From Bacteroidetes bacterium 43-16 (lineage in GTDB: Bacteria; Bacteroidota; Bacteroidia; Chitinophagales; Chitinophagaceae): DNA of 59,635 nt. Below are positions 19,048-39,576 of this stretch, piece by piece. A program made the translations under genes and the position numbers. Numbering within the stretch: position 1 is the stretch's first letter; the number at the start of each line of letters is the position of its first letter. Location of the stretch: contig MKTB01000023.1 in assembly GCA_001897525.1 (NCBI GenBank), forward strand, positions 1-59,635, in the 5' to 3' direction. The notes below the pieces were generated by a model, which was not told where the DNA came from, searched no databases, and saw nothing but the letters and a program-made list of their open reading frames with translations.

Positions 19048-19113
19048 TACAAAGTTCCGCCGATTATGCCTTACCTTGTTTACAATTTTTCTTATTTGAT
19101 TTATGATATTTAC
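19048..19113 (-). promoter_or_regulatory. Conserved copper-region promoter (DUF3347/oxidase operon)
   Basis: Reading the minus strand, the box GTAAATATCATAAATCAAAT begins at 19113 and the -7 CTTTGTA ends at 19048. The first base of the box and the TTTG are 60 bases apart, as in five other promoters of this window. It is the most divergent copy in the middle of the box (CATAAATC instead of TACAAATT). Confidence 0.6.
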
Positions 19114-19123
19114 GGTTTTATGC

Positions 19124-19690
19124 TTACAGATAATGGATGTAGCCTATTCCCGGGAGATATTGGCAGTCATCACAGATATCATATGCTGCTGTTGATCTTT
19201 CAGGCTGGTCAAAATTGGCTTTCAGAAAAGTGTCTGAAAATAATGCATAAGGCGGATGTTGTGCAATGCGGTTTTTCAGCATCTTGTGGGCTTCTACTAC
19301 GGTGGGGCCATACAGTTTTTTAAACTTGCCGATTCTGTAGCTTGTAAATGCGCCATAATGCACAATGGTTTTCAAAGAGAGCGGGATCTCCAGCTCCAAA
19401 TGCTCTGATAACTGTTGCAGTTCTTTAGAGAACTCAAGGTGGGTATGTTCTATCTGCATCAGGGTTTCCTGAAAAGTAGGCAGATAATGGTATTTATAAA
19501 AAAGCACAGCGTCACCCTCTATGTCGGAAATTTCCAGACGGAGTATGTTGCTGTTTATAATGGATTGGATAAGGCTTTCTGTAATGTATTTCCCAACTGA
19601 TATTTCTGAACTCATCACGAAATCGGTAAACCCGGAAATGTCAGGGATCATCAACATTCCAATGGAATCTTCTGTACTTTGCGTTTCCAT
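19124..19690 (-). CDS. DUF2652 protein (nucleotide-cyclase-like fold)
   Basis: 188 residues. It opens GMLMIPDISGFTDFVMSSEI and continues with EISDIEGDAVLFYKY, giving the DISGF and EGDAV pair that DUF2652 shares with class III adenylate cyclase catalytic domains. Most residues for catalysis beyond these are absent, so activity is doubtful. There is no signal peptide. It stands between the copper oxidase promoter and the tandem repeat region, and no link to copper is evident. Confidence 0.75.
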   Translation of the reverse strand: METQSTEDSIGMLMIPDISGFTDFVMSSEISVGKYITESLIQSIINSNILRLEISDIEGDAVLFYKYHYLPTFQETLMQIEHTHLEFSKELQQLSEHLELEIPLSLKTIVHYGAFTSYRIGKFKKLYGPTVVEAHKMLKNRIAQHPPYALFSDTFLKANFDQPERSTAAYDICDDCQYLPGIGYIHYL

Positions 19691-19883
19691 TACTCAGGAT
19701 TTTATTATAATGAAGTGAGGATAAATCCGGGTTCCTCAGCTACGGGTTAAACTTTTTGGGCATAAAGGTTTTTTGCCTGTATTTGCGGCTTTGAAGGACA
19801 CTTGCCTGAGAAGACGGTATCTTGTATTCACCGCTCATTTTAATTGAGAGCAACCGCCGCTGTTCATTTTATTTCAATGGGAT
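19691..19883. other. Intergenic DNA without recognisable gene
   Basis: No open frame of note, no hairpin with T tract and no match to the copper promoter box. The duplicated block begins at its right edge. Confidence 0.5.
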
Positions 19884-19897
19884 TATAGTAAAAAATA

Positions 19898-20034
19898 CTG
19901 GAAGGAGGAGACCGGATGTGACTTCTATTCCTTTCATTCCCGATGACTGGCATAGCGTGTGAAACTGCCTAATATGAAGAAAGTAATTCTTCTTCTCAAC
20001 GCTATGTCTGTTCTATCCGCCTCCTGCCTTCCAG
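19898..20034. ncRNA. 137-nt long hairpin element, copy 1 (possible structured RNA)
   Basis: The ends pair as CTGGAAGGAGGAGACCGGAT against ATCCGCCTCCTGCCTTCCAG with few bulges. Inside, CATAGCG pairs with CGCTATG and GAAGAA with TTCTTC around AGTAA. The second copy (20277-20413) has the same length and retains all three helices despite base changes. It could be a non-coding RNA, a processing or terminator structure downstream of the HMA gene, or a MITE-like element. No reverse transcriptase or transposase is nearby. Confidence 0.4.
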
Positions 20035-20118
20035 CTAACACACCATAATAACACTAATGTCTGTTCAAAACCCAGGTGATTTTAAAACCTGCAGATGGTG
20101 ATCTTTTATCATTTAGTT

Positions 20119-20225
20119 TTATTTTTCTATGGATTCAATTTTGAATCCTGCTTTTCTACGGCTTCTATTACTTCCTTTTCTGTAATACCTTCTGTTTTTA
20201 CGTGAGCACTTTTATCTTTTCTATG
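20119..20225 (-). pseudogene. Remnant of an HMA metal-binding gene
   Basis: This matches the last 35 or so codons of the intact gene at 20498-20719. One base is missing in the TTTTTCTAC run near 20153 and another in ACGGTGAGC near 20202, and homology stops near 20225. The CxxC part and the start are absent. It arose from the tandem duplication and cannot make a functional protein. Confidence 0.82.
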
Positions 20226-20262
20226 AGTTGATCATAACTGCTGCCGTTCATTTCAAAATGTT

Positions 20263-20605
20263 TATAGTAAAAAATGCTGGAAGGAGGAGACCGGATGTAA
20301 CTTTTATTTTTTTAATTTCAGATGTCTGGCATAGCGCGTGAAACTGCCTAATATGGAGAAGGTAACTCTTCTTCTCAACGCTATGTCTGCTCTATCCGCC
20401 TCCTGCCTCCCAGCTAACAAACCATAATAACACTAATGCCTGTTCAAAACCCAGGTGATTTTAAAACCTGCTGATGGCGATCTCCTATAATTTAGTTTTA
20501 TTTTTCTATGGATTCGATTTTGAATCCTGCTTTTTCTACGGCTTCTATTACTTCCTTTTCTGTAATACCTTCTGTTTTTACGGTGAGCATCTTATCTTTT
20601 TTATG
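20263..20605. repeat. Tandem duplication, right copy (intact end)
   Basis: The functional partner of 19884-20225: it contains hairpin copy 2 and runs into the intact HMA gene. The 36-base stretch between the copies (20226-20262) is unrelated except for a short TTCATTT stretch. Confidence 0.88.
20277..20413. ncRNA. 137-nt long hairpin element, copy 2
   Basis: Same architecture as 19898-20034: terminal arms CTGGAAGGAGGAGACCGGAT and ATCCGCCTCCTGCCTCCCAG, middle helix CATAGCG/CGCTATG, apical helix GAGAAG/CTTCTC. It lies 85 bases downstream of the HMA stop codon. On the minus strand it is followed by CATTTTTT, so it could end that transcript. Confidence 0.4.
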
Positions 20606-20719
20606 GATATCTACTTCCCAGTTTTCAATACCTTCTGCCTGGTCCAGGAAAGGGGTTACCGATGCCAGACAGCTTGCACAATTGATATTGGTTTTGAACT
20701 GCAATATTTTGTTTTCCAT
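20498..20719 (-). CDS. CopZ-like HMA-domain metal-binding protein
   Basis: 73 residues, a single ferredoxin-like HMA domain. The CxxC site is NCASC (14-18), and the fold ends KEVIEAVEKAGFKIESI. Such proteins carry Cu(I) in the cytoplasm and hand it to P-type ATPases such as the CopA encoded at 37070-39487. It is monocistronic, with its own copper-type promoter 32 bases upstream. A broken duplicate of its 3' end lies downstream. Confidence 0.88.
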   Translation of the reverse strand: MENKILQFKTNINCASCLASVTPFLDQAEGIENWEVDIHKKDKMLTVKTEGITEKEVIEAVEKAGFKIESIEK

Positions 20720-20748
20720 TTTCTTTAAATTTTTATTGTTTTTCTTAA

Positions 20749-20813
20749 TACAAAGTTGGACAATAGTAGGTCTCTATTTTTGCTATATTCCCGGTTTAAT
20801 TTGTAACATTTAC
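20749..20813 (-). promoter_or_regulatory. Conserved copper-region promoter (CopZ-like gene)
   Basis: Minus strand: box GTAAATGTTACAAATTAAAC plus CGG begins at 20813. The -7 element CTTTGTA is at 20749-20755, the TTTG starting 59 bases after the box start, and the start codon is 32 bases further on. Best match to the six-promoter consensus. Confidence 0.7.
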
Positions 20814-20897
20814 TGTTGCGCAAAAAAACTGTACTATATAGCCGCAAAAGCAGCGAAACCGGGACATTGAGCCGGTCGATCTTGTATAGTTTGATCT

Positions 20898-21695
20898 TTA
20901 CAGACGGTAAGCATAACCGATCATTACGTTAGCTGCTCCGGATCTGTTCTTTCCATTGGCAGATCCTTTCTGGATATTAATAAAACCATAATTACCGCCT
21001 CCTTCAATGAAGATCATATTGCGTTTCATTTTAAATCCAATGCCTACATTACCGGCCAAGCCGAAATTGAATGAACGAAGCTGTTCTTTAATATCTTTTG
21101 TATTGTCAAAAGGTAAGCTCAGGATGCCTGCAGAAGGGTTCGTGGGATTTGCAGGAACGGGTTTTGTTTTTCCTTCATCAAGATAAACCTGGCTACTGCC
21201 TTCGGTGACTTGCTTGCCACTCAGCAACAGCCCTGCAAATGGTCCGGCACCGGCATAGATCCGCCATTTCTTTTTAGGTCCCAGGTCCCATCCGAATTTG
21301 GCTAAAACCGGCAACATCAGATAATCAAGTTTAGCTGTGCTTTTAAAATCTGCATATAAATAGGGAGGTGCCTGCGGACCAAATAAAGGAGCCATCTGTG
21401 CCGGAAGGGGAAAAGCTTGCACACCGTCTTTCTTCCCGCCCTGCTGTGAATACTCCAGCATTGCCTGAATGGAAAAAAGCTTACTGGTGTGGTATTCTGC
21501 AAAGACACCAAAACCTGCTCCCAGCCTTGAACTGTAGCCTTTGTTCAGTGGATTAACCTCCGAACCACTACCTGCCGTCAAATTGGGTATAGCAAGCCCT
21601 CCACGGGCACCTATACTCCATCGCTGGGCTGATACTGATTGAGGAGTGTACAACAGAACTGTTGCTGTGATTATGGATAATATATATTTTTTCAT
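20898..21695 (-). CDS. Outer membrane beta-barrel protein (PorT-like)
   Basis: 265 residues from the ATG at 21693-21695. An upstream in-frame start would add 18 residues before an otherwise perfect signal peptide (MKKYILSIITATVLL, cleaved after VSAQ). The mature part is an eight-strand-type barrel: WSIGARGGLAIPNL, GFGVFAEYHTSKLFSIQAMLEYSQQGG, LMLPVLAKFGW and a final NVMIGYAYRL. This is the outer-membrane beta-barrel (OMP_b-brl_2) family, function unknown. It follows the HMBD protein gene by 96 bases and may share its copper promoter. Confidence 0.82.
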   Translation of the reverse strand: MKKYILSIITATVLLYTPQSVSAQRWSIGARGGLAIPNLTAGSGSEVNPLNKGYSSRLGAGFGVFAEYHTSKLFSIQAMLEYSQQGGKKDGVQAFPLPAQMAPLFGPQAPPYLYADFKSTAKLDYLMLPVLAKFGWDLGPKKKWRIYAGAGPFAGLLLSGKQVTEGSSQVYLDEGKTKPVPANPTNPSAGILSLPFDNTKDIKEQLRSFNFGLAGNVGIGFKMKRNMIFIEGGGNYGFINIQKGSANGKNRSGAANVMIGYAYRL

Positions 21696-21791
21696 TTTAA
21701 AATTTTTTAATGGGACTGTTCCACCTTTTGTTTCATTACATTGGTGCATATCCCGGTTATCATTTTTTATACTGTTACCTTCTGACCCTTA

Positions 21792-22643
21792 TTAATGGTG
21801 GGCTCCTTTATGGTTTGTCTCTGCCTGTTCTCCGCGCGAAACGGTTACCGTAAAGTCTGCCGTATGTACCACATCATTTACTTTAAATTGTACCCACATC
21901 CGGTATAGTCCTGCTTTTTTAATGATTGTTTCCGCATAAATAGGAAAAATCGGGTCTGCTATAGGATGGATATGAAGAAAGTCGTAATCGACTCTGCTGA
22001 TCATTACAATATGTGCATTGGCTCCCAGGTAGGGCTGCATATCTTTTGCCTGCAGTATTCTGCAGTCTTTCACTATTGAAAATCTCAGGTCTTGCGGATG
22101 ATTGGTCGTAAGCTCGTCCCCATTCAGCAAAAACACGGTATAGCCATCAGCTATTGATGCCAGTTTTGTTTCCAGCCTTTGCGGTATGGCCGTAGTAGCA
22201 CCGGACACCTCGATGTGGTGTGTATTGACTTCCTGAGCACTCCCGCCCGGCTTATAATCGGTAAATAAAAGGTATTTTCCTGCTGCCGGAAATATTTCGG
22301 AAATATGATAAGTCCCATCCTGTTGTTCTTCAGGATGAATATGATCAAACCACGACAGTTCTTCGTTTACGATCAGGAGATGTAATTTCTTTTCGTGTAC
22401 TACGTCCAGCATTACGTTTCTGCCCTGTTCGGTAATCGCAATATTCAGACTAACAGGTTTGCAGGCTTCTATGTGCTGCGTTCCGGTACTTATTTTTACT
22501 TCTGTTCTGTTCTCCCTTTCTTTACCTGCGGGTATTAATGTCATTCCACATTCAGGACATTTGTCGCCTTTATTCCCTGTTACTTTCGGGTGCATAGGAC
22601 AAGTGTACACATTGCTGAGGTTTTGTTGAAGGTCTGTACTCAT
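21792..22643 (-). CDS. HMBD heavy-metal-binding-domain protein
   Basis: 283 residues. The N terminus holds a heavy-metal-binding domain, YTCPMHPKV followed by GDKCPECGMTLIPAG (about 13-40). Two beta-rich segments follow, with LSWFDHIHPEEQQDGTYH and VDYDFLHIHPIAD, whose paired HxH motifs could bind copper, and a His-rich end. There is no signal peptide, so the protein is either cytoplasmic or exported by an unrecognised route. It is first in a transcript with a copper-type promoter 120-185 bases upstream. The role is probably metal binding, inferred. Confidence 0.75.
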   Translation of the reverse strand: MSTDLQQNLSNVYTCPMHPKVTGNKGDKCPECGMTLIPAGKERENRTEVKISTGTQHIEACKPVSLNIAITEQGRNVMLDVVHEKKLHLLIVNEELSWFDHIHPEEQQDGTYHISEIFPAAGKYLLFTDYKPGGSAQEVNTHHIEVSGATTAIPQRLETKLASIADGYTVFLLNGDELTTNHPQDLRFSIVKDCRILQAKDMQPYLGANAHIVMISRVDYDFLHIHPIADPIFPIYAETIIKKAGLYRMWVQFKVNDVVHTADFTVTVSRGEQAETNHKGAHH

Positions 22644-22762: not shown

Positions 22763-22828
22763 CACAAATTTCAGTTGCCGGAGACTTACCTGTATTGCGT
22801 TTTTACTTATTTAATTTGCAATATTTAC
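22763..22828 (-). promoter_or_regulatory. Conserved copper-region promoter (HMBD gene)
   Basis: Minus strand: box GTAAATATTGCAAATTAAAT begins at 22828. The -7 ATTTGTG is at 22763-22769, with 60 bases between box start and TTTG. The TAA of the box is the stop codon of the preceding MFS gene (22825-22827). The long leader (122 bases) before the HMBD start is unexplained. Confidence 0.6.
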
Positions 22829-24024
22829 AGATTATTTGGTGTAGACCTTCCTTTATACAAAACAATTCTTACAGCTACTATCAAAGTAATGATCAGCATC
22901 GGGATCAGCACTACATTCACGCCTTTCCAGCCCCAGTGGTTGAAAAGACTTCCTGCAAAGAAACTGGCAATACTGATGACCGTAAACACCGTAAAATCGT
23001 GAAAAGCCTGTGTTTTCTCCTTCTCCTCAGGCCGGTAAACTTTAGTAAGCAGAGAAGAGCCACCGATAAACAGGAAATTCCAGCCCAGGCCTACCACAAA
23101 CAATGCCGCCACAAAGTAGCCCGTACCCGTCCCGCTAAGGGCTATAACAATATAAAGCAGCATAATCAGCAAGCCCGAAATAATGATCCGGTAAACACCG
23201 AATTTCTGAATGAGCATTCCGGTAAAGAATGAAGGCAGAAACATTCCCAGTACGTGCCATTGAATAACCATTGCCGAGCTCTCTGACGGATGCCCGAAAC
23301 CGTACATCGCAATGGGTGTAACGGTCATAGACATACCCATTACGGCAAATGCAGTAGATGAAGCAAGTACCGCAAGGATGGCATCTTTATTTTTAATGAT
23401 TTCCTTTAAAGCCCGTCCCTTTACTTTAGTATCATTTACCTGAAGTAATGTTGTTTTGCCTAACTTCAGCAGGGATATAATACCCAACGCTAATAAGCTC
23501 AGTAAAATGATAGAAAAATAGGAATAGGCATAAGGTTCAGCGCCCATATGCTGTGTGAATTTAGCCAGATTGGGCCCGGCAAATGCAGCAACAATACCTC
23601 CTGCAATTACGAAAGAAATAGCTTTGCTTTTCGCCTGCTCCGGAACAGCATCAGCAGCGGCAAAGCGATAATACTGTGAAAATCCCTGATAAGCGCCTAC
23701 CAGCATATTGCCTATGGAAAATATCCAGAATGAATGCTGAACAATACCATACCAGGAAACCAACCCGGCCAGCCCGCCTATCAGGGTACCCATCATAAAC
23801 GCCTTACGCTGACCAATTTTTTTGATGATCACAGAAGCAGGAATCATCATCCCCGCCGTACCCACCGTAATCATTGCGATAGGTAAAGTAGAAAGGTTTT
23901 TATCCGGGGCCATTGCCAGTCCAGCCAATCCCGATAAGGTAATGACCAGGATAGAGGCCGTCTGGAACAGTGCCTGCGCGATAAACAGCAGGTACACATT
24001 TTTCCACTGAACAGTTGTTTTCAT
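22825..24024 (-). CDS. MFS transporter, 12-TM type
   Basis: 399 residues from the ATG at 24022-24024; a TTG seven codons upstream is inside a perfect palindrome and is less likely. Twelve hydrophobic segments are visible, with MFS motif A-like KKIGQRKAFMMGTLIGG between TM2 and TM3 and a second half starting LAVLASSTAFAVMGM. It is an exporter of unknown substrate. It sits between copper genes, but its upstream region holds a 38-base palindrome rather than the copper promoter box. The RM unit has been inserted just upstream. Confidence 0.85.
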   Translation of the reverse strand: MKTTVQWKNVYLLFIAQALFQTASILVITLSGLAGLAMAPDKNLSTLPIAMITVGTAGMMIPASVIIKKIGQRKAFMMGTLIGGLAGLVSWYGIVQHSFWIFSIGNMLVGAYQGFSQYYRFAAADAVPEQAKSKAISFVIAGGIVAAFAGPNLAKFTQHMGAEPYAYSYFSIILLSLLALGIISLLKLGKTTLLQVNDTKVKGRALKEIIKNKDAILAVLASSTAFAVMGMSMTVTPIAMYGFGHPSESSAMVIQWHVLGMFLPSFFTGMLIQKFGVYRIIISGLLIMLLYIVIALSGTGTGYFVAALFVVGLGWNFLFIGGSSLLTKVYRPEEKEKTQAFHDFTVFTVISIASFFAGSLFNHWGWKGVNVVLIPMLIITLIVAVRIVLYKGRSTPNNL

Positions 24025-24059
24025 AAGCTTAAACTTTGAGGTCAAAGTTTAAGCTTATG
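24022..24059. promoter_or_regulatory. 38-base perfect palindrome at the MFS start codon
   Basis: Two 18-base arms (24022-24039 and 24042-24059, beginning CATAAGCTTAAACTTTGA) are exact reverse complements around a GG spacer. The left end is the MFS start codon itself. Size and form suit a dimeric repressor site or a MerR-type operator. It could also form an RNA hairpin that hides the start codon. No regulator gene is adjacent. Confidence 0.6.
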
Positions 24060-24130
24060 CTCAAGCTTAGTATTATGTTATTTCTTGTTTGTTTTGTGAA
24101 GTTTACGGGTTTCTCTTACAAACAGAAAAG

Positions 24131-24195
24131 CTGTAAAACCCTCTGGTAGTAAAGCTTTTTATTATTCTTGTAAATACTAATCCTTTGAAAATAAT
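24131..24195. repeat. 65-base direct repeat flanking the RM genes, left copy
   Basis: 60 of 65 bases match 26628-26692, including an uninterrupted 31-base core starting AGCTTTTTATTATTC. Each copy contains a hairpin with a T tract on both strands (here AAAAGCT/AGCTTTT). Only these two copies are seen in the window, on either side of the restriction-modification pair. Confidence 0.85.
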
Positions 24196-24262: not shown

Positions 24263-25225
24263 TTAGGTGATGTTGCCATTTTCATCTTCATATATGAATT
24301 CCAATTGTCCGATTGAAATTTGTTTGTTTTGTTGTTTGTCAAGGATGTAGTCTTTAATACAATTTGCTACAAATTCTCCCAATTTTACGGGCACGGCATT
24401 ACCAATAATTTGTTCAAGGTCTGTTTTTGTGCCATTGAGAACAAAATTATCCGGGAAAGTCTGTATGAGGCTTCTTTCCTTTGTTGTTAAAGGTCTTAAA
24501 TCTTCGGTAATTTCTACAGGGTCGCCTTCGTGTTTTGTGTAGCCTTTTGGAATTGGCCTGTTTACGCCGCGTATTGTCGGGCTTGGTTCATAAATGCTGA
24601 AAATACCACGTCTTGCATAGCTTCTCGGATGCCTGTAATAATATTCCAGACCTAAGGAATTGCCGAAATAATCAAACAATGTTGTTGGTTTTGCAGTTTG
24701 TTTTTTAGCAAAATACGGGTTTAAAAAGTTGTCTTGCGACTGTTTATGCCCAACCAGGAAAAAGCGTTTTCTTGACTGAGGAACGCCACACAAACTTGCA
24801 TCTAAAACTTGATAAGAAATGCCGTAACCTGCTTTCTTGAAAATTTGTAATGCTTCTTTTAGGATACGGCTTTTTGTAATTCTTTCTACGTTTTCCATTA
24901 CAAACCATTCGGGCTTTGCTGCTGAAACTATGTTAGCAAATGATATGGTTAAATCTGCTCTTCCCAGGGTTTCATCACGCTTTCCTGCACTTGAAAAATC
25001 CTGGCAAGGCGGGCCACCTATTATCATTTGGGGTTGAAGGCTTTTTACAAATTCAAGTCCTTCTTCACTTCCCAGATCGGTGTCGTAAATAGGGTGGTCA
25101 AAATTTTCTTTATACACTTTTACGGCTGGTTCCCATTTGTCAAAAGCTGCTAATATGTCAAATCCTGCGTTTTGAAATCCCAGGGATAAACCTCCGCAAC
25201 CTGAAAATAAATCTACGATCTCCAT
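24263..25225 (-). CDS. DNA (cytosine-5-)-methyltransferase
   Basis: 320 residues with the ordered C5-methylase motifs: I DLFSGCGGLSLGFQ (5-18), IV GGPPCQDFSSAGK with catalytic Cys74, VI MENVERI, VIII QSRKRFFLVG, and X GNAVPVKLGEFVA. Between VIII and X lies a short target-recognition region. It should protect host DNA at the site cut by the adjacent endonuclease. Its start overlaps the endonuclease stop (TAATG), so it is translated after the nuclease. If the nuclease is HindVP-like, the site would be GRCGYC, which remains inference. Confidence 0.93.
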   Translation of the reverse strand: MEIVDLFSGCGGLSLGFQNAGFDILAAFDKWEPAVKVYKENFDHPIYDTDLGSEEGLEFVKSLQPQMIIGGPPCQDFSSAGKRDETLGRADLTISFANIVSAAKPEWFVMENVERITKSRILKEALQIFKKAGYGISYQVLDASLCGVPQSRKRFFLVGHKQSQDNFLNPYFAKKQTAKPTTLFDYFGNSLGLEYYYRHPRSYARRGIFSIYEPSPTIRGVNRPIPKGYTKHEGDPVEITEDLRPLTTKERSLIQTFPDNFVLNGTKTDLEQIIGNAVPVKLGEFVANCIKDYILDKQQNKQISIGQLEFIYEDENGNIT

Positions 25226-26298
25226 TAGCTAAATAATTCAGGTGAGTTAAAAATAATTGCATCAAATCGTCTTTCGGGACTCAGCAAATTTTGTCCGCCA
25301 CCAAGAATGATATTCCTGATGTCTTTTTTCTCAATTCTTGGCATTGTGAGTTCCGGACAAGCCATATAGCGGTGTGTAACACGCCCACTTACCGCAAATG
25401 CTTTGTCGTTTTTCGTGTTATAAGAAAGTTCGTCGATGATCTTATGATGGTTGATTTGTCCATTTTTTGAAAAATCATACAGCATTTTGAACAACCAGAT
25501 AATAGTTCTTATTTGTCTTGTGATTTTATTGTTAGAGGATAGTTCGCCTCTTGCCACATCAACGAAAAGTTGTGTAAAGGCAAAGTTGCTCCAAACAAAA
25601 ACGTCCAAACAATGGTCAGAAAGTTTTGGCGATTTTCCGTTTGTTTTCCAAATTGGTTGTAATAAAATCGGTTCTTGCTTATCTAAAACGGAAAGAATGA
25701 TTTTGTCGATCGTTAAAATCATTTTGGTTATATGCGGCCAGACCGCTGTTCCGTCTGTCCAGTCTGTTATATGGTCAAATTGATCTCCTATAATTTGAGC
25801 AAGTTCTTTTTGCCGGTCTTTGAAATTGGAAGCAATACTACAAGCCAAATAGACTATTGTGTCTGGTCTTATGACGATTTCGCAACCGTAGTATTCTTCA
25901 CTTAGATTGCAAGTGGAATTATCAGGTAATGCCGTCAGCTTTACTTCAATGGGTCGTAAAACCTGTCCGCTATCCCGTGATTGAGTCACTAAATCAACTC
26001 TGGGTAAAGTACCGATAACTAATTGCTGGTAGGGCGTGTATTGACTTTCAAAGGAGAAAAACAAATCGTCAGAGGTTGGGTTTATACCATAAAGTTGCTC
26101 TGCCGAAATTTTTTGATGTTCAATTTTAAGGTCTTTGTCAAGACAGATATAAACGTTGTCTAAATTTTTAGAAGCAAAAAAGTTGGTCAAACCCGCAGGA
26201 AACGAAGAATTAAACTGGTTTTTGCCCCAAGTATCAGCTTGTGTAAAATCCCTGTTTGAATGCTTAATTCCGAATAGTCCCGCTTTTTGTATGTCCAT
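25225..26298 (-). CDS. Type II restriction endonuclease, HindVP-like
   Basis: 357 residues from the ATG at 26296-26298. The longer frame uses a TTG that is part of the -7 promoter element, so it is rejected. The N terminus GLFGIKHSNRDFTQADTWGK and NQFNSSFPAGL resembles the HindVP family. A PD-(D/E)xK-like core is visible as LPRVDLV (D) then RPIEVKLTALPD (ExK). Enzymes of this family cut GRCGYC. It is transcribed first, with the methylase gene directly after. The family call rests on remembered motif similarity and is moderately sure. Confidence 0.75.
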   Translation of the reverse strand: MDIQKAGLFGIKHSNRDFTQADTWGKNQFNSSFPAGLTNFFASKNLDNVYICLDKDLKIEHQKISAEQLYGINPTSDDLFFSFESQYTPYQQLVIGTLPRVDLVTQSRDSGQVLRPIEVKLTALPDNSTCNLSEEYYGCEIVIRPDTIVYLACSIASNFKDRQKELAQIIGDQFDHITDWTDGTAVWPHITKMILTIDKIILSVLDKQEPILLQPIWKTNGKSPKLSDHCLDVFVWSNFAFTQLFVDVARGELSSNNKITRQIRTIIWLFKMLYDFSKNGQINHHKIIDELSYNTKNDKAFAVSGRVTHRYMACPELTMPRIEKKDIRNIILGGGQNLLSPERRFDAIIFNSPELFS

Positions 26299-26322
26299 AA
26301 TTTCTATATCTAATTCCAGCTT

Positions 26323-26330
26323 CAAATTTA
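26323..26330 (-). promoter_or_regulatory. -7 element of the RM operon (TAAATTTG)
   Basis: Exact TAnnTTTG on the minus strand, 25 bases before the chosen ATG. It explains the spurious upstream TTG start. Confidence 0.6.
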
Positions 26331-26627
26331 CTAATAATTTTGGGAAGGTTCTTTCCTCTCTTAGTTGGTTCTGGTATAGTAGCTGCCGGCATTGTGCCTA
26401 ATCCTCAAATATATGAAATGCTAAAATGTATGAAAATGAAATTTATATACAGGTATTTAATCTTATTATCAGCTGGTTACACGTTCATTTTTAATTTGTT
26501 TTTATTTTGCATTAATGCATTTTTAGTTTTCGTATTTGTAAACAATACAAAAGACGATAAAACTAAATTACAAAAATACAGACATACAGATCATCACAAA
26601 TTCATACCTTATTTAATAAAAAAAAAA
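26331..26627. other. AT-rich region upstream of the RM operon
   Basis: No convincing gene. An imperfect inverted repeat (ATTTTTAGTTTTCGT at 26519-26533 against ACGATAAAACTAAAT at 26554-26568, two-base bulge) could be a regulatory site. A 97-codon plus-strand frame here is hydrophobic low-complexity sequence and is not called. Confidence 0.45.
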
Positions 26628-26692
26628 CTGTAAAACCCTCCGGTAGTACAGCTTTTTATTATTCTTGTAAATACTAATCCCCTGAAAACAAT
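26628..26692. repeat. 65-base direct repeat flanking the RM genes, right copy
   Basis: Partner of 24131-24195. On the minus strand its hairpin (AAGCTGTA/TACAG region) is followed by nine T, making a good terminator for the HMA gene that ends at 26761. That suggests the original locus was HMA gene, terminator, MFS gene, before the RM insertion. Confidence 0.85.
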
Positions 26693-26760: not shown

Positions 26761-27012
26761 TTAATCATTATTGCAGCAGCCTCTATTGTAACCTGATGCA
26801 TTACTGTCTTTCTCTGTCGAAACAGTATAGCCTGCTTTCTCTATCGCATCTATTACTTCTTCTTCCCTGCTCTCTGAAGTAAAGGAAATGGTAAGATGGC
26901 CTGCTGCTATATTGTCTATTTGTACACCTTCTATTTCTTGTACGGCGTTGTTTACCCTGGTCTGGCAGTGTGTACTCTGCATATTGGGTACGCTGATGGT
27001 TAATTGCTTCAT
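26761..27012 (-). CDS. HMA-like protein with SxHC metal site
   Basis: 83 residues, one HMA fold: LTISVPNMQSTHCQTRVNNA at the N terminus, VIDAIEKAGYTVS before the tail. The usual CxxC is changed to S13-T-H-C16, so the first Cys is lost and a His sits next to the second. The C-terminal tail adds a CC pair (GCCNND). The first HMA domain of CopA in this window has the same SxHC change. It has its own copper-type promoter and is followed by the RM-flanking repeat. Metal binding is likely but with altered ligands. Confidence 0.78.
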   Translation of the reverse strand: MKQLTISVPNMQSTHCQTRVNNAVQEIEGVQIDNIAAGHLTISFTSESREEEVIDAIEKAGYTVSTEKDSNASGYNRGCCNND

Positions 27013-28515: not shown

Positions 28516-28554
28516 TGAATTGTTTTTTTTGAAAGGGTAATTGTTTTATCAAGA

Positions 28555-32900: not shown

Positions 32901-32999
32901 GCCGAGCTGCTTCCATCCCACAATGCCGAGGATAACGATCAGCAGGGAGAATACGCCTGCCAATACAGGTTTTTTTATACTTAAATCTGAAATACTCAT
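29901..32999 (-). CDS. RND efflux permease (HAE-1/AcrB-type)
   Basis: 1032 residues, normal for AcrB-like pumps. It starts MSISDLSIKKPVLAGVFSLL and has twelve membrane segments and two large periplasmic loops. The proton-relay aspartate pair is in LVLAIGLVVDDAIVVLENIY (TM4). FLFLRDWRSTIIP and ALVLIYMILAAQFESLRDP are typical of the drug-exporting branch rather than the CzcA/CusA heavy-metal branch, whose hallmark metal-relay residues I do not see. Substrates are unknown. It lies between adaptor and TolC genes. Confidence 0.93.
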   Translation of the reverse strand: MSISDLSIKKPVLAGVFSLLIVILGIVGWKQLGIREFPLTEPPVISVITFYPGASPDVIASKLTRPMEESIAEASGIRTISSESREQVSVISVEFNRDIDLEDALNDVRDKVSKSRKQLPADVDPPIVQKATSPDNLVAFLEVESDTKDIKEVSHLASTTIKDRMQSIPGINNVAIVGEHKYAMRLRFDPVKLAAYNLTPEDIRRALLRENIDLPSGRLEGNETELSIRTLGRLTTAEDFEQMLIKQVGNTVIYLKDIGSAELGEENERTAIINETGNLNRVGIGVAVQIQRGANAIQVVDEFYKRLEQLRKEIPSDYRLIVGFDFTKSVRESIKEVEETLFIAFGLVVLIIFLFLRDWRSTIIPVIAIPVSILSAFFIMYVAGFSINVLTLLGLVLAIGLVVDDAIVVLENIYKKIEEGMSPVQAAFKGSREIYFAVISTTITLAAVFLPIVFMGGISGQLFLEFAIVVSGSVLVSAFVALTLTPMLSAYFLKKKEKPNWFYRVSEPFFVWLNNGYFKILKAFMKVRWMAWVFLAGTTLLIYFVGRSLPSELAPVEDRSNLSLIAIAPEGVSFEYMKKNMIEVGKYVNDNTDGLYQTYSMVAISFIPAPAPVNVAAQSIYLKEPKERKASIQDLYNQYGAASGQFRGFLLFPYLPPTIGTRYGGGMPVQFVLQSPNLDSLTVVLPKFLAAARQSKKLMFVDSDLKINKPEVKINIDRRKAAMMGVSMEEVARTLQLSLSGQRYGYFLRNDRQYEVIGQLERKLRNDASDLNSIYVRSVTGQMIPLGNLITKEEAVSPAAIYRYDQYTSATISAATAPGVSLAEGIEEIEQIKKKVLGDNFKSSLAGQSRDYRESQGNIMFTLILALVLIYMILAAQFESLRDPLIIMLTVPMAVTGAVLSLSWFGQSLNVFSQIGIITLVGLITKNGILIVEFANHLKDQGFSKFDAAIHAAEQRFRPILMTSLAMIFGALPIALTPNSRQSLGIVIAGGLVFSGILTLFIIPAVYSYLSSKKRSKEVVEEDIVSIHPKNH

Positions 33000-33020
33000 T
33001 TTTGCTGAAATTTTATTAGA

Positions 33021-34079
33021 TTATTTAACCGGAACCGGGGCTACCGGCATTCCATCGCCCAGGCGCAGGATATTGGAGATAATAACGCTGTCTCCTGTAC
33101 TGATCCCGGATGTTATGGTTACCTTTGTTTCGGTACGGTTTGCAATCGTGACTGGAACGGTTTTGGCCACGCCTTTTTTGATTACAAATGCATTGTAGCC
33201 TTTTTGCCCGGGTACAAGTGCTTCTGAGGGCAATTGTACGCCCGTGGCTCCTTTTTCTCCGGTGTTGAACAGTACTTTTACAGAAAGACCTGCGCGCAAC
33301 ATTCCCTTGTCATTGGAGGTTACAGCCTGTACCAAAAGGCTTCTTCCCTGGGCTTCCAGTCCCGGTTCGGTGGCTATGATGGAGGCTGTATATTCTTTAT
33401 CCGAAAGAACGGTTTTGAATTTTATGCTACTGCCCATTTGTACATAAGAAAGGTATTGCTCGGGAACGGAAAAACTGATTTTAATGCTTCCCTGGTCCTG
33501 CAGAGTAACGAGCGTTGTTCCGGGGGAGACATAAGCACCTGTCTGCAATTTTGTGATCCCTATTTTACCTGAAAAAGGGGCCCTGATGACTGTTTTGCTC
33601 AGTTCTGCACGTAAGAGGTCCTGCTGGGCTTCCAGGGTATTCAGCTGCATATGGGCTTCATCGTATTCCTGCTGGTTGACGGTTTCTGTTTTCAAAAGAT
33701 TGGCCAGACGCTGCTGGGTAATCTTTGCCAGTTTTATCTGTGCAGCCACCTGTCTCAGGCGGGAAGTGATCTCTGCATCGTTGAGGGTGTAGAGTACTGC
33801 GCCCTGCTTTACGTAGCTGCCGTCTTTAAAGGCTACTCTGGTTATTTTCTGTGCCAGCTCCCCAACGATGGCTACTTCCCGATAGGGTTCTATGGTCCCT
33901 ACGAGTGACTCTTCCAGGTTCAGAGCTTCCTGCTGTGCCACGATGATATCAACGGGCAGCTTAGTGTTTGCCGGAGCTGCAGCCGGTTTCTGTTCTTTAC
34001 CGCCGCAAGCCGCTAAAAAGAGACTAAGCAACGGAATAATAACAGCCGGCTTTTGCAACGTAGATAATTTATGTAACAT
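33021..34079 (-). CDS. RND periplasmic adaptor (membrane fusion) lipoprotein
   Basis: 352 residues from the ATG at 34077-34079. An in-frame extension of 15 residues upstream is AT-rich leader and is dropped. The lipobox FLAAC (Cys25) marks a lipoprotein. Barrel-sandwich, coiled-coil and beta-barrel domains follow: YREVAIVGELAQKITRVAFKDG, then VRQ..KITQQRLANLL helices, then VIRAPFSGKIGITKLQTGAYVSPG. It links the RND pump to the TolC channel. It is the first gene of the adaptor-RND-TolC-MFS operon and has a copper-type promoter 43 bases upstream. Confidence 0.9.
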   Translation of the reverse strand: MLHKLSTLQKPAVIIPLLSLFLAACGGKEQKPAAAPANTKLPVDIIVAQQEALNLEESLVGTIEPYREVAIVGELAQKITRVAFKDGSYVKQGAVLYTLNDAEITSRLRQVAAQIKLAKITQQRLANLLKTETVNQQEYDEAHMQLNTLEAQQDLLRAELSKTVIRAPFSGKIGITKLQTGAYVSPGTTLVTLQDQGSIKISFSVPEQYLSYVQMGSSIKFKTVLSDKEYTASIIATEPGLEAQGRSLLVQAVTSNDKGMLRAGLSVKVLFNTGEKGATGVQLPSEALVPGQKGYNAFVIKKGVAKTVPVTIANRTETKVTITSGISTGDSVIISNILRLGDGMPVAPVPVK

Positions 34080-34119: not shown

Positions 34120-34187
34120 GACAAATGTACCGTGGTGCAGTAAGCTGCTTTTTACACAATTGCTTTTAGGTTTTGTAATATTTCTTA
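34120..34187 (-). promoter_or_regulatory. Conserved copper-region promoter (RND operon)
   Basis: Minus strand: AGAAATATTACAAAACCTAA begins at 34185, aligned to the GTAAATATTACAAAT box. The -7 ATTTGTC is at 34120-34126, again 60 bases between box start and TTTG. Here the neighbouring gene is on the opposite strand, so the box is not conserved for reasons of coding. Confidence 0.55.
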
Positions 34188-34488: not shown

Positions 34489-34492
34489 AAAG

Positions 34493-35326
34493 ATGCAAGC
34501 AAAATATGGTATGAATAAAAATAAAAAGATACAGGTAGAGGGTAAAGAGATAACTATACTTTTTGACAACGATCAAGAATATATCTCGCTTACGGATATG
34601 CTTAAGGCCAAAGATGGAGATTTCTTCATTTCTGATTGGCTTCGAAACAGAAATACGGTTGAATATCTTGGCATATGGGAGACGGTTTATAATCCTAATT
34701 TTAATTATGGCGAATTTGCCATAATTAAAAGTCAGGCCGGGTTGAATAGCTATAAATTAAGTGTGAAAGAATGGGTTGAAAAAACTGGCGCAATTGGGCT
34801 GAAAGCAACAGCAGGAAGATATGGGGGAACTTATGCCCACCCTGACATTGCGTTTGAATTTGGAATGTGGATTAGCCCCCAGTTCAAGATTTATTTAATC
34901 AAAGAGTTTCAACGCCTCAAGGATGATGAAAACAACCGCCTGCAACTGGACTGGAACCTGCAACGAACTATTTCCAAAATCAATTACCACATACATACTG
35001 ATGCCATCAAAGAAAACCTGGTGCCTAAAGTCATTAGCAGCCGGCAAGCCAGCCACGTATATGCTACTGAGGCTGATCTGCTGAACGTGGCCCTTTTCGG
35101 TATTACAGCCAAAGAATGGCGTGATGCCAATCCCAACAAATCTGGCAACATAAGGGATTATGCCACATTAGAGCAGCTAGTCGTGTTGAGTAATATGGAA
35201 AGTATTAATGCTTTGCTGATCAAACAAGGACTGCCACAAAGCGAAAGGCTGCTGCAGCTCAACCAGGTGGCGATAACGCAAATGAAATCGCTGGTCGGAA
35301 GTAAGGAAATAAAAAGGCTGAAGTAG
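34493..35326 (+). CDS. KilA-N domain protein
   Basis: 277 residues. The KilA-N DNA-binding-like domain is about 15-145: ISLTDMLKAKDGDFFISDWL, LNSYKLSVKEWVEKTGAIGLK, and the signature AHPDIAFEFGMWISPQFKIYL. The C-terminal part (about 150-277) is helical and unassigned, with RDYATLEQLVVLSNMES and a Lys-rich end. KilA-N proteins are typical of phages and mobile DNA, but no other phage gene is nearby. An ATG six codons in (34511) is an alternative start. Confidence 0.8.
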   Translation: MQAKYGMNKNKKIQVEGKEITILFDNDQEYISLTDMLKAKDGDFFISDWLRNRNTVEYLGIWETVYNPNFNYGEFAIIKSQAGLNSYKLSVKEWVEKTGAIGLKATAGRYGGTYAHPDIAFEFGMWISPQFKIYLIKEFQRLKDDENNRLQLDWNLQRTISKINYHIHTDAIKENLVPKVISSRQASHVYATEADLLNVALFGITAKEWRDANPNKSGNIRDYATLEQLVVLSNMESINALLIKQGLPQSERLLQLNQVAITQMKSLVGSKEIKRLK

Positions 35327-35390: not shown

Positions 35391-35984
35391 TCAATGGTCT
35401 TCCTGTCTGGCGTTCTTTTGAGTAATAGCCTGCTTATCTGCCCTGATTTTTTTAAAGTAGGCAGAGGTAAAACCGGTATGTTTTTTCAATTGATTGGAAA
35501 GATGGGCAGGGCTGCTGTAGCCTAAATTATAGGCGATGTCTGATAAGGTCTGATCGGTATAGACCAACAGTTCTTTGACCTTCTCTATTTTGCTGTGAAT
35601 GATAAATTTTTCAAGTGTATATTCGTGAAAAAGGGAAAAAAGTGAGCTAAGGCTGCCATAGTCTTTATTCAGTTCATTGCTTATCAATACTGAAAATTTG
35701 ACGGGGATTCCAGTGTCTAACTGCTGCTGAATGCCTTTTTGCACGGCAGCCTTTATGTCTTCAATAATCTTCTGATTCCTGTTGTACAGCAAATCAAACC
35801 CCAATGCCTGCAAAACAGACCGGATTGCCTGCTCGTCAATATCGGGGTTGTTTTTCTTCAGGATCACCTCACCTAAACGTACTTCGGCGAGTTCCAGACC
35901 TAGCTGGGACAAGGCATCAGACAGAACATAGATACACCTGCTGCATACCATCCCTTTGATGTGTATTTTGGAAGTATTTGTCAT
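35391..35984 (-). CDS. AraC-family regulator with N-terminal HMA-like CxxC domain (paralogue 1)
   Basis: 197 residues. Residues 1-70 look like a small HMA-type fold: KIHIKGMVCSRCIYVLSDAL with C14 and C17, then VRLGEVILKK and VLQALGFDLLYNR. A short helical linker follows. The C-terminal AraC double HTH (about 95-190) has KIEKVKELLVYTDQTLSDIA and LGYSSPAHLSNQLKKHTGF. The arrangement suggests a regulator that senses Cu(I) or another soft metal directly through the CxxC. It is the third gene after copA and the CDF gene, 64 bases downstream of the latter. Confidence 0.82.
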   Translation of the reverse strand: MTNTSKIHIKGMVCSRCIYVLSDALSQLGLELAEVRLGEVILKKNNPDIDEQAIRSVLQALGFDLLYNRNQKIIEDIKAAVQKGIQQQLDTGIPVKFSVLISNELNKDYGSLSSLFSLFHEYTLEKFIIHSKIEKVKELLVYTDQTLSDIAYNLGYSSPAHLSNQLKKHTGFTSAYFKKIRADKQAITQKNARQEDH

Positions 35985-36048: not shown

Positions 36049-37002
36049 TCAATGATGATGGTGCGCCCCGGTAGGACTTGTTTTTGTGTTGCATAATACT
36101 GAGGTATCGTGTCTGTGTTCGGTTGTTTCCAATTGAATGGTTACGTGGTGAATGTTTAAGTGCAGCAGATCGTGTTCTATTTTACCGAGTAATATTTCAC
36201 GGGCCTCACTCGTCATTTTTTCATTGACTACGACGTGGCAGGTCATTGCGTTTAAGCCGCTGGTAATGGTCCATATATGCAGGTCGTGAATGCTGATGAT
36301 CTCTTCTGTTCCTACTATTTTCTGTGTTACATTTTCTATGTTAACATTATCCGGTGTGCCTTCCATCAGCACGTGTATGGCTGATTTTGTCACGAGGTAG
36401 CCGCTTCGTAAAACCAATACAGAAACGATCATACTTGCCAGGGCATCTGCCCAGATCCAGCCGAAAAACATAATGAGCAAAGCGGCAATAATAGCCCCTA
36501 CGGAGCCCAGCATATCACTGATCACGTGCAAATAAGCGCCCCGCATATTCAGGTTTTCTTTTACATCGGCACCACGCATCATTATCCAGGCTACCAGTAT
36601 GTTTACCGCTAATCCTATCACTGCAACAATGAGCATTCCGCCGGACAGGATCTCGGGGGGCTTTTGGAAACGCTCTATGGCTTCATAAATAATGTAGGCG
36701 GAGATCAGGATCAATGTTACTCCATTGATGACCGCAGCCAATATTTCAAACCGTTTGTAACCATAAGTTTTTCCATAATCTGCTACTTTGCTGCTGAATG
36801 TAAAAGCCATCAGGGCGATAAAAAGAGATATGGCATCACTCAGCATATGTCCTGCATCTGCAAGCAGGGAAAGGCTGTTTGTAAGTAATCCGCCAATAAC
36901 CTCTACCGCCATATAGATGGTAATAATAACGAGGCTTATGGTTAATGTCTTTTTATTGGCACTGCCGGTATGGCTGTGATCGTGGTTATGGTTATGTTCC
37001 AT
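36049..37002 (-). CDS. Cation diffusion facilitator (CzcD/ZitB-like)
   Basis: 317 residues from the ATG at 37000-37002, which opens the His-rich N terminus MEHNHNHDHSHTG; a 14-residue upstream extension is not typical. Six membrane segments carry the metal-binding pairs in LLADAGHMLSDAISL (TM2) and LHVISDMLGSVG (TM5). The cytoplasmic C-terminal domain includes SIHDLHIWTITSGLNAMTCHV and ends in a HHHH tract. The family exports Zn, Co or Cd by proton antiport. It follows copA by 67 bases, so the operon may serve several metals. Confidence 0.92.
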   Translation of the reverse strand: MEHNHNHDHSHTGSANKKTLTISLVIITIYMAVEVIGGLLTNSLSLLADAGHMLSDAISLFIALMAFTFSSKVADYGKTYGYKRFEILAAVINGVTLILISAYIIYEAIERFQKPPEILSGGMLIVAVIGLAVNILVAWIMMRGADVKENLNMRGAYLHVISDMLGSVGAIIAALLIMFFGWIWADALASMIVSVLVLRSGYLVTKSAIHVLMEGTPDNVNIENVTQKIVGTEEIISIHDLHIWTITSGLNAMTCHVVVNEKMTSEAREILLGKIEHDLLHLNIHHVTIQLETTEHRHDTSVLCNTKTSPTGAHHHH

Positions 37003-37069
37003 TACTGTTGGTTTTAGCTGTAAAAAACTACTCTTTAATGTCACTCTTTCAATAGCCGGGTTTCTTGTT

Positions 37070-39487
37070 TTATTTTTTCCACTTTAACCGTAAGCTGTTG
37101 GACACTACGCTTACGCTGCTCAATGCCATTGCGGCACCGGCGATCATCGGGTTAAGGAGAAAGCCGTTGACAGGATAGAGGATCCCTGCTGCAACGGGAA
37201 TACCTATAAGATTATAGATGAATGCCCAAAACAGGTTCTGTTTTATGGTAGCTACGGTCTGCCTGGACAGCTTTATGGCTTGTGGTATTTTGGTGAGATC
37301 GGAGGATATGATGGTCATCTTGGCTACATCCATTGCGATATCACTGCCTTTACCCATTGCGATACTTACATCTGCGGTAGCCAGTGCGGTGCTGTCATTG
37401 ATCCCATCGCCTACCATTGCCACTACTTTTCCCTGCTGCTGCAGTTCTTTTATAAAATCGGCTTTATGCTGGGGTAATACTTCTGCTTTGTAATGTTTAA
37501 TACCCGTCTGCTCTGCTATTGCTCTGGCTGTGGCTTCATTATCACCTGTAAGCATATAGAGGTCTATACCTGCTTCCTGCATTTGCCGGATGGCTTCTAC
37601 AGAGGTTTCTTTGATCTTGTCGGATATGGCAATGACTGAAAGCGCCTGCTTGCTGCTGGCAAACCAGATAACGGTTTTGGATTGTCTACCCCATTCATCT
37701 GCCTGCTGTTGTAAGATTTCATTGATGGTAATGTTGTTTTCTATGAGCAGTTTTTTGTTGCCTACGAAATAAAGTTCACCTTTATGTATGGCTTTGGCAC
37801 CTTTGCCCGTAATGCTGTCGAACTGGGATAATGAGGTGGCGGGTACAGCTCCAAGATGCTTGACCACTGCTTCTGCCAATGGATGTTCGGATTGTTTTTC
37901 TATGCTTAACAGAATATTTTTAGTGGTATCATTGCCATCCAGCCACTTGATACCGGTTACTTCGGGCTTTCCCTCGGTAATGGTTCCTGTTTTGTCTAAA
38001 ACAATGGCGTTTACTTTTTTCGCTAATTCGAGGCTTTCTGCATCTTTTATTAGAATACCTTTTTCTGCCCCTTTGCCTACGCCTACCATAATGGCTGTAG
38101 GTGTGGCTAGTCCCAGAGCGCAGGGACAGGCGATCACCAATACCGTAATGGCGGCCAGCAAGCCCTGCACGACTCCGTTATTGCCTCCCAGAATAAACCA
38201 TAGAATAAATGTAAGGATGGCTATTGCCATCACCACGGGGACAAAAATGCCTGCAATCTTGTCCACCAGCTTCTGCACGGGGGCTTTGCTGCCCTGTGCG
38301 TCCTGTACCATTTTAATGATTTGGGCCAGCATTGTCTCTTTCCCTACTTTCACTGCACGGAACCGGAAGCTGCCTTTTTGGTTGATGGTTCCGGCAAATA
38401 CTTTTTCATCTGCTGCCTTCAGTACGGGAACGGGCTCTCCGCTCAGCATACTTTCATCTACATAGGAGCTGCCGGATGTTACCATCCCGTCTACTGCTAT
38501 TTTTTCACCTGGTTTTACAAGGATCACATCTCCGGTGCTTACTGCTTCAATGGGAATTTGTTTTTCTGTGCCGTCCGCTTGTATCACCATTACGGTTTTA
38601 GGTTGTAATCCCATCAGTTTTTTGATGGCTGATGAGGTGTTGCCTTTGGCTTTTTCTTCCAGCAATTTTCCTAAGAGGATGAAGGCTACGATTACGGCTG
38701 CTGCTTCAAAATAAACGTGGGCGTGTAATCCTCTTTGATGCCAAAAGTCTTCAAACAGCATATTGAACACGCTGAATATATAGGCAATCCCGGTACTCAG
38801 GGCTACCAGGGTATCCATATTGGCAGAGCGGTGCCGGGCCTGCTTCCAGGCGTTTATAAAGAAGTCTTTTCCCAGCCATAGTACCACGGGTGTGGCAAAG
38901 AGCCACATAATCGGGTTGGCATAAGGCATATCCATTAAAAACATTCCTATGATCACCACAGGTATGGACAGGATAACTGCCCAGATGGTTTTGTTCTTCA
39001 ACTGCCGGAATTTTTTGGCGTGGATGGCTTCTAATGTTTCCTGCTGCTGGCTTTCATCTGTGATCAGCAGATCGTAGCCGATAGACTGTACTGCCTGCTG
39101 CAGTTGAACGGCATCGATCATATTGGGCAGGTATTCTACAGTAAGATTCCCCGTGGCAAAGTTTACTGAAGAGCTTACCACACCCTCCTGGTATTTTACT
39201 ATGCTTTCTGTACTGCCGGCACAGGAGGCGCAGGTCATCCCCAATACGGGAAAGGTACGTTTCACTGTAGAAACTCCATAGCCCAGGTCACGAATGGCTT
39301 TAACGGCTTCTGCGACAGCTTCGGTATTGTCTACTGTAATGGCTGCCCTGCGGTTATTGAGTTCCACTTTGTGGGTATCTATACCGGTAACCTGTTGCAG
39401 TCCTTTTTCAACGATCAGGGCACAATGCTCGCTTTCTACGTCTTCCAGGGGTAAATAGATGGTTTCTTTATTGTCGTGGGATGCCAT
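37070..39487 (-). CDS. copA: Copper-exporting P-type ATPase
   Basis: 805 residues, P1B-1 type. Two N-terminal HMA domains: the first (about 11-75) has S19-E-H-C22 in place of CxxC, the second (about 78-145) the normal GMTCASC (C86, C89). Core motifs are TGEK-type SGEPVPV, ACPCALGLATPTA (CPC in TM6), DKTGTITEG (phosphorylation Asp), SEHPLAEAV (HP motif), GDNEATA and GDGINDSTAL. It pumps Cu(I) out of the cytoplasm. It is preceded by an HMA-AraC gene, whose stop codon lies in the copA operator, and followed by the CDF and second HMA-AraC genes. Confidence 0.95.
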   Translation of the reverse strand: MASHDNKETIYLPLEDVESEHCALIVEKGLQQVTGIDTHKVELNNRRAAITVDNTEAVAEAVKAIRDLGYGVSTVKRTFPVLGMTCASCAGSTESIVKYQEGVVSSSVNFATGNLTVEYLPNMIDAVQLQQAVQSIGYDLLITDESQQQETLEAIHAKKFRQLKNKTIWAVILSIPVVIIGMFLMDMPYANPIMWLFATPVVLWLGKDFFINAWKQARHRSANMDTLVALSTGIAYIFSVFNMLFEDFWHQRGLHAHVYFEAAAVIVAFILLGKLLEEKAKGNTSSAIKKLMGLQPKTVMVIQADGTEKQIPIEAVSTGDVILVKPGEKIAVDGMVTSGSSYVDESMLSGEPVPVLKAADEKVFAGTINQKGSFRFRAVKVGKETMLAQIIKMVQDAQGSKAPVQKLVDKIAGIFVPVVMAIAILTFILWFILGGNNGVVQGLLAAITVLVIACPCALGLATPTAIMVGVGKGAEKGILIKDAESLELAKKVNAIVLDKTGTITEGKPEVTGIKWLDGNDTTKNILLSIEKQSEHPLAEAVVKHLGAVPATSLSQFDSITGKGAKAIHKGELYFVGNKKLLIENNITINEILQQQADEWGRQSKTVIWFASSKQALSVIAISDKIKETSVEAIRQMQEAGIDLYMLTGDNEATARAIAEQTGIKHYKAEVLPQHKADFIKELQQQGKVVAMVGDGINDSTALATADVSIAMGKGSDIAMDVAKMTIISSDLTKIPQAIKLSRQTVATIKQNLFWAFIYNLIGIPVAAGILYPVNGFLLNPMIAGAAMALSSVSVVSNSLRLKWKK

Positions 39488-39510
39488 ACTTCGTTTGTTT
39501 TATATTACAA

Positions 39511-39576
39511 TACAAAGTTGGCTACAATCCGGAGGAATGCTCTTGCGGAATTGCCGGATAGATTTGTAAGATTTAC
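39511..39576 (-). promoter_or_regulatory. Conserved copper-region promoter (copA)
   Basis: Minus strand: box GTAAATCTTACAAATCTATC plus CGG begins at 39576. The -7 CTTTGTA is at 39511-39517, with 60 bases from box start to TTTG and 25 more to the start codon. The TAA of the box is the stop codon of the upstream AraC gene (39573-39575). Confidence 0.7.

Follow-up and report, generated by a model that had tools for sequence, protein, structure and literature searches.

A predicted operator at copper-gene promoters of Bacteroidetes bacterium 43-16 and its candidate regulator, an AraC-family protein with an HMA-like sensor half

Activators of the AraC/XylS family, such as AraC, MarA/SoxS and MelR, carry a DNA-binding domain with two helix-turn-helix (HTH) motifs and act from direct-repeat operators next to the core promoter; in araI of the AraC system the repeat is 21 bp. 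Copper-responsive genes of the copA, chaperone and efflux kinds are controlled by CueR, CsoR, CopY and CusR, and promoters of Bacteroidota have a -7 element, TANNTTTG, with a TTG at -33. We describe here a recurrent promoter box in a copper gene island of Bacteroidetes bacterium 43-16 (GenBank assembly GCA_001897525.1, contig MKTB01000023.1, positions 1 to 59,635 of the forward strand; this whole stretch of 59,635 nucleotides is called the window), together with the protein that very probably uses it as its operator, HMA-AraC1, a proposed Cu(I)-responsive activator of a copper regulon. The likeness of HMA-AraC1 to the AraC/XylS activators lies in the two-HTH domain and in the direct-repeat operator beside the core promoter, whereas an HMA-like metal-binding domain takes the place of the sugar-binding cupin as sensor half, and its promoters are of the Bacteroidota -7 type. 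With CueR, CsoR, CopY and CusR it shares the kinds of target genes, but it comes from an unrelated protein family and has an unrelated operator. The sensor half resembles Atx1/CopZ chaperones and the HMA domains of Cu-ATPases in profile, fold and CxxC motif; unlike these, it is fused to a transcription factor, and its motif reads MVCxRC in place of the GMTCxxC type. By sequence and predicted fold of its DNA-binding half HMA-AraC is an AraC-family member, and what appears to be new is the HMA-like sensor half and a predicted, widespread copper regulon. In the open-licence PMC literature (titles and abstract openings, among the matches listed) neither a copper regulator of the HMA-AraC kind nor its operator was found described for Bacteroidota, which agrees with the original prediction that no such operator was known; PMC4938975 describes CsoR as noticeably absent from the Bacteroidales.

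A motif was learned, unseeded, from 80 other Bacteroidota loci encoding relatives of the window HMA-AraC, in a search region reaching from 6 bases before the regulator stop codon to 200 bases past the stop. Searching further into the regulator gene was given up, as the motif then settled on its conserved 3' end. One strong motif was found, 38 bases long (.tGTAAATCTTACAAATCatttcCAaAATt.cAcAAca), with a log-likelihood of 1141 (60 starts), compared with 123 for a single letter-shuffled control (25 starts). Applied to the window, this foreign-only motif returned seven sites scoring 38.3, 27.1, 24.9, 23.0, 22.8, 21.3 and 16.4, the eighth-best place reaching only 3.8. The original prediction had set boxes at six minus-strand promoters; all six positions were borne out, also by the motif from other genomes alone, and the count rose to seven with a site at 24071-24108, before an MFS transporter gene. 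In 1000 first-order Markov replicas of the window there were 15 matches of at least 16 in total and at most one per replica; further null sets gave a top score of 15.6 in 100 replicas and of 25.2 (one match) in 30 replicas. Since the replicas never exceeded one match at that level, the seven sites together are not due to chance, although a single weak one could be. An 18-base pattern with at most 3 mismatches gave nine window matches where 1.75 were expected, a count reached in 0 of 100 shuffles; the nine comprised five of the six predicted boxes, 24089-24106 and three others, and the weak box of the gene starting at 34079 was not among them. A search of the window section 17000-41000 against Rfam returned nothing at gathering score and thus gives no sign of a known RNA element. 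For genome-wide use a longer model, R1, was built on 60 foreign sites, leaving out the 20 of the 80 loci whose score within 200 bases past the regulator did not exceed 15. The sites, with their motif scores and R1 E-values, and the genes of the island are as follows.

39573-40136, minus strand: HMA-AraC1, 187 amino acids, MVCNRC, proposed Cu(I)-responsive activator (predicted fold, with a predicted local distance difference test value, pLDDT, of 87, and profile matches)
39541-39578, minus strand: predicted operator of copA, score 38.3, overlapping the HMA-AraC1 stop codon; E=1.0e-11, the best in the genome; -7 TTTG from 39516
37070-39487, minus strand: copA, Cu-translocating P-type ATPase with two HMA domains
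36049-37044, minus strand: cation diffusion facilitator (CDF), copA operon
35391-35984, minus strand: HMA-AraC2, 197 amino acids, GMVCSRC, last gene of the copA operon, of a separate clade
34150-34187, minus strand: predicted operator of the RND/MFS efflux operon, the weakest, score 16.4, E=0.0022
27097-34079, minus strand: efflux operon of HlyD/CusB-like, AcrB-type RND, OEP and MFS genes
27064-27101, minus strand: predicted operator of an HMA gene, score 21.3, -7 reading TTTT, E=0.0032
26761-27012, minus strand: HMA metallochaperone-like protein, 83 amino acids
24071-24108, minus strand: seventh predicted operator, score 22.8, E=6.7e-4
22825-24024, minus strand: MFS transporter, its likely start being ATG 24024, not TTG 24045
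22793-22830, minus strand: predicted operator of the HMBD gene, score 27.1, E=0.0015
20898-22643, minus strand: HMBD protein and outer-membrane beta-barrel gene
20778-20815, minus strand: predicted operator of the CopZ-like gene, score 24.9, E=1.3e-5, with a spacing shorter by one base
20498-20719, minus strand: CopZ-like HMA protein, 73 amino acids, with Pfam HMA just below cut-off
19078-19115, minus strand: predicted operator of the DUF3347/oxidase operon, score 23.0, E=2.9e-5
14699-18974, minus strand: operon of DUF3347, unknown, DUF3347, haem-binding and multicopper oxidase genes

In the other genomes the motif lies beside the regulator gene. A score above 15 was found within 200 bases past the HMA-AraC stop in 60 of the 80 foreign loci, the motif starting 6 bases before the regulator end in 35, 2 bases before it in 14 and further on in 11, so that 49 of the 60 sites lie at the HMA-AraC stop codon. 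In the 35-locus class the GTAA of the motif spans the stop codon TAA of the regulator, and the copA site of the window belongs to the same class. Over the 80 loci 110 places scored above 12, 108 of them on the regulator strand and 104 with a properly spaced -7 T-run; at least one such site was present in the examined DNA of 76 loci and none in L090, L094, L096 and L131. Ninety of the 110 places are followed by a protein whose N-terminal 50 residues fit an HMA or copA-type pattern, and the other 20 include CDF, Csp-like, HMBD, DUF3347-like, membrane-fusion and MFS proteins (assigned by reading the sequences). The Chryseobacterium locus L101 has eight sites in 9.5 kb, two of them weak (12.3 and 12.4), before genes for copA, CDF, a Csp-like protein, a lipoprotein, an HMA chaperone, an AraC2 homologue, a TetR-type-like gene and a membrane-fusion protein (likewise read from sequence).

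The structure of HMA-AraC1, predicted with confidence, consists of an HMA-like beta-alpha-beta-beta-alpha-beta part (strands E and helices H at E2-7 H12-24 E29-33 E36-39 H45-58 E61-63), a linker helix and an AraC domain with two HTH motifs. The C-terminal domain matches Pfam HTH_18/HTH_AraC, which together with the predicted helices of the two HTH motifs places the protein in the AraC/XylS family. A family sequence profile (A1) found Cu-ATPase HMA domains at 2.6e-7 and weaker, as well as AraC, SoxS and YesN domains. Foldseek placed AraC-type domains first (8 chains at E<=0.001), with Atx1/CopZ-type chains only at E of about 0.05-0.2. The CxxC motif of HMA-AraC1 is formed by C11 and C14, both kept in 137 of 154 homologues. 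HMA-AraC1 matched AraC-type models only and, by profile, AraC-type and HMA chains, and showed no sequence relation to CueR, CsoR, CopY or CusR. Among the plasmid records listed with relatives, 13 of 15 are annotated as AraC family or helix-turn-helix. HMA-AraC is widespread in Bacteroidota. Genome G001, of the same family, and Taibaiella helva have an identical HMA-AraC in common, and the organism of the window is most likely a member of the Chitinophagaceae.

The HMA-AraC proteins had been put forward earlier as candidate regulators, a proposal that operator adjacency and the co-occurrence given below support. It is unlikely that the main binder is HMA-AraC2 or the third HMA-AraC of this genome (C17:254605), with HMA-AraC1 merely adjoining copA. 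Both proteins align to the HMA-AraC1 query over most of its length, HMA-AraC2 is encoded in the copA operon, and the AraC2 homologues in L066 and L101 are preceded by a site of their own (score 16.2); on the other side stand the adjacency of the operator to AraC1-type genes in the 60 loci and the position of AraC2 in a distant clade holding 3 of 100 rows (the tree was built from 100 of the 154 HMA-AraC rows, with a midpoint root for drawing only). Because the AraC2 homologues own a site and the window HMA-AraC2 ends the copA operon, a relay from HMA-AraC1 to HMA-AraC2 is plausible at the level of gene arrangement.

The layout of the sites bears on how HMA-AraC1 would act. The motif matches itself best as a direct repeat shifted by 21 bp (r=0.75 across 12 columns), and among shifts of 8-22 a shift of 21 was best in five of five site sets, that of the window included; the weaker second half-site that had been predicted about 30 bases on is thus, in fact, this 21-bp repeat. 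The CCGG or TAAG taken for the end of the box separates the two half-site cores, a place mostly filled by TTTCC-like sequence in other genomes. The expected spacing of 59-60 bases to the -7 element holds in all seven window sites when counted up to the T-run from the first base of GTAAAT, G or whatever stands in its position. A -7 TTTG was correctly predicted except at the promoter of the gene starting at 27012, which has TTTT and lacks the A. In the 60 foreign sites, whose motif was learned without TTTG, TTTG starts 23, 24 or 25 bases past the motif in 10, 48 and 2 cases, with an A at TTTG-3 in 59 and a full TA in 15. A TTG at the -33 place was absent from 60 of 60 foreign sites and from seven of seven window sites (the latter by eye). 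The missing TTG, with the inner half-site standing in its place, is the layout expected of an AraC-type activator that takes over the -33 contact; direct repeats beside the promoter, spaced by about two helical turns, are an AraC/XylS trait, and the 21-bp repeat, as the predicted binding site, is present at that place.

From these observations we infer DNA binding by HMA-AraC1, Cu(I) as the signal and activation rather than repression. The HMA cysteines (MVCNRC) would take Cu(I), whereupon two AraC domains would bind the 21-bp direct repeat GTAAATCTTACAAATC / cAaAATtNCacAAca. With the inner half-site occupying the place of the -33 TTG, bound HMA-AraC1 would recruit RNA polymerase to a -7-only promoter (aNNTTTG), and the copA-CDF-HMA-AraC2 genes, the chaperones, the RND/MFS pumps and the HMBD/outer-membrane and DUF3347/oxidase genes would be switched on jointly. 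It is quite unlikely that HMA-AraC acts on the same operator as a repressor relieved by copper: repressors released by metal, CsoR and CopY among them, are common, but the sites lie upstream of the -7 element, at one fixed spacing and in the -33 place, and a blocking repressor needs neither. A third reading takes the GTAA-N3-TTAC dyad in the outer half-site as the operator of an unrelated dimeric regulator. The box does show partial inverted symmetry (r=0.61 over 12 columns), yet the direct repeat is the stronger pattern, the consensus of the stress-type sites described below has no GTAA...TTAC, and the operator co-occurs with HMA-AraC, all of which makes such a regulator very improbable. That the boxes are merely promoter DNA copied by recent duplication within the island, with no shared regulator, is scarcely credible, for although the island has local duplications, the DNA from the half-sites to the -7 element differs among the seven sites and the motif recurs on further contigs of this genome and across many families of the phylum.

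R1 was run on the 4.73-Mb genome, 150 of 2667 first-look candidates being scored (E-values are rough), and returned 14 places at E<0.005, seven of them in the window. The claim of a single copper regulon could have failed had genome-wide sites mostly preceded unrelated genes; ten of the 14 precede metal-linked genes, the MFS gene of the window being counted only by its position in the island. R1 separated targets better than the single 18-base box, which was rejected as a genome-wide tool for its lack of specificity (200 matches at 3 mismatches, against 188 for the reversed pattern). The sites outside the window, all at E<0.005, precede the following genes.

C3: second copA, with HMA and HMBD
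C13: HMA-chaperone operon with DUF3347 and, read from sequence, an RND pump
C39: Fur-family gene, then an apparent P-type-ATPase fragment
C15:400520 (L179) and C33:238535 (L180): beta-propeller secreted-type proteins, one with a type IX secretion system (T9SS) tail in the part seen, usual spacing
C19:105319 (L184): CHU_C secreted protein, usual spacing
C24: pseudouridine synthase; the opposite strand carries an HMA gene

A fifteenth place (L186, C33:84495; E=0.2, correct spacing) lies before a DUF983 gene followed by an apparent SufS-type cysteine desulfurase.

Operator and regulator tended to occur together. Among 97 genomes of the same family, an operator at E<=1e-4 was found in 43 of 72 with HMA-AraC and in 0 of 25 without, and at E<=0.01 in 58 of 72 and 6 of 25. 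Among 247 genomes of the phylum, an operator passed E<=0.001 in 40 of the 119 that have HMA-AraC, compared with 4 of the 128 that lack it (p=8e-11); this set contains the own genome and some family genomes, and its filters were stricter than those of the family set. Some genomes in these counts supplied training sites for R1, which favours their scores.

Several observations weigh against HMA-AraC1 as the copper-responsive activator of these genes. Secreted proteins without known copper role follow three of the 14 sites in the own genome, two of which rank second and third, and the pseudouridine synthase follows another. Of the family genomes with HMA-AraC 14 show no site at E<=0.01, a level reached in 6 of the 25 that lack the protein; in the phylum set no site at E<=0.001 was found in 79 of the 119 genomes with HMA-AraC, and one was found in 4 of the 128 without, which means that many relatives must read another operator, have drifted or were missed. 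One genome of the same family (G032) has five operator matches and no HMA-AraC match; its assembly is 91% complete in 310 contigs, and the regulator may be absent from the assembly only. At E<=0.001 Pfam and NCBIfam matched the AraC part only, and neither of the two window proteins gave an HMA match. Soft metals other than copper can also be bound by HMA domains. Lastly, this genome encodes three HMA-AraC proteins, which leaves a choice of binder among them.

With a predicted activator, its operator and a target list at hand, the copper response of Bacteroidota becomes directly testable, and the promoters offer a route to candidate copper genes, namely those of the secreted proteins, DUF3347 and Csp-like proteins.

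Some relatives appear to have other targets. The genes downstream of the 109 best listed family matches outside the own genome were examined; one match (L293) gave no open reading frame, leaving 108 to be scanned, and a simple sequence pattern for HMA defined the groups. In 47 of the 108 the site is followed first by a gene with an HMA domain. Fifteen HMA-AraC paralogues have the first metal cysteine replaced by serine (Ser-type), including L050, L298, L300, L302 and L305-L308, further Ser-type paralogues being L311, L312, L314, L315, L319 and L331. In genomes in which a Ser-type regulator was found, the first gene holds an HMA domain after 4 of 38 sites, compared with 43 of 70 in the rest, a grouping that rests on fetched regulators among the matches listed, so that other genomes may hold such regulators too. 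The genes after the 38 sites are mixed: CsbD (2), cupin (2), YceI, a short-chain dehydrogenase, a peptidase M48, a response regulator, an ice-binding-like protein and numerous genes of unknown kind; two of the sites are followed by the gene of the Ser-type regulator itself. A Dps-like gene (read from sequence) follows the site in G070, whose group regulator, L056, keeps the CxxC.

The 15 Ser-type rows fall into a supported tree group (26 rows, support 98) with eight CxxC rows of the NMVCIRC type and three others. Because the group mixes Ser-type and CxxC rows, membership of the group, and not the loss of the cysteine, may be what accompanies the altered targets. The sites were compared after leaving out 10 of the 109 that scored under 10. 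Column 5 is G in 22 of 34 sites of Ser-type genomes, 4 of 43 sites before HMA genes of the same family and 1 of 60 named sites; column 10 is A in 25 of 34, 7 of 43 and 7 of 60, respectively. Twenty-two further sites, in neither group, look intermediate. The sites of Ser-type genomes keep the 21-bp repeat and have TTTG at 24 in 23 of 35 cases, a spacing biased towards the TTTG place, since these sites were found with the copper-trained model, which contains TTTG. We regard it as an evenly balanced question whether the HMA-AraC family is split into a copper branch (CxxC, GTAAAT-N-TTACAAAT) and a sister branch (GTGAAT-N-ATATAACT, with the same repeat and promoter spacing) driving mixed, partly stress-type genes (CsbD, cupin, YceI, Dps-like). 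If so, rewiring would have made a different kind of switch out of a copper sensor, with sensor and operator both changed, and nature would perhaps provide here an example of a metal sensor with relatives that altered both signal site and operator.

Other features of the window lie in and around the copper island. A perfect inverted repeat (24022-24059; 18-nucleotide arms, 2-nucleotide spacer) covers the -7 element and the start of the MFS gene and could be the site of a second regulator. Genes for a HindVP-type restriction endonuclease and a cytosine methylase lie within the island at 24263-26325, flanked by 80-nucleotide direct repeats (24116-24195 and 26613-26692, 88% alike), and look like an inserted restriction-modification unit. 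A KilA-N domain gene stands on the plus strand at 34493-35326, between the efflux operon and HMA-AraC2 and opposite to the surrounding copper genes. At 19868-20582 there is a duplicated block (288 nucleotides at 90% and 51 nucleotides at 100%, spacing 379-380). Part of the CopZ-like gene falls within it, and it looks like what is left of a chaperone gene duplication.

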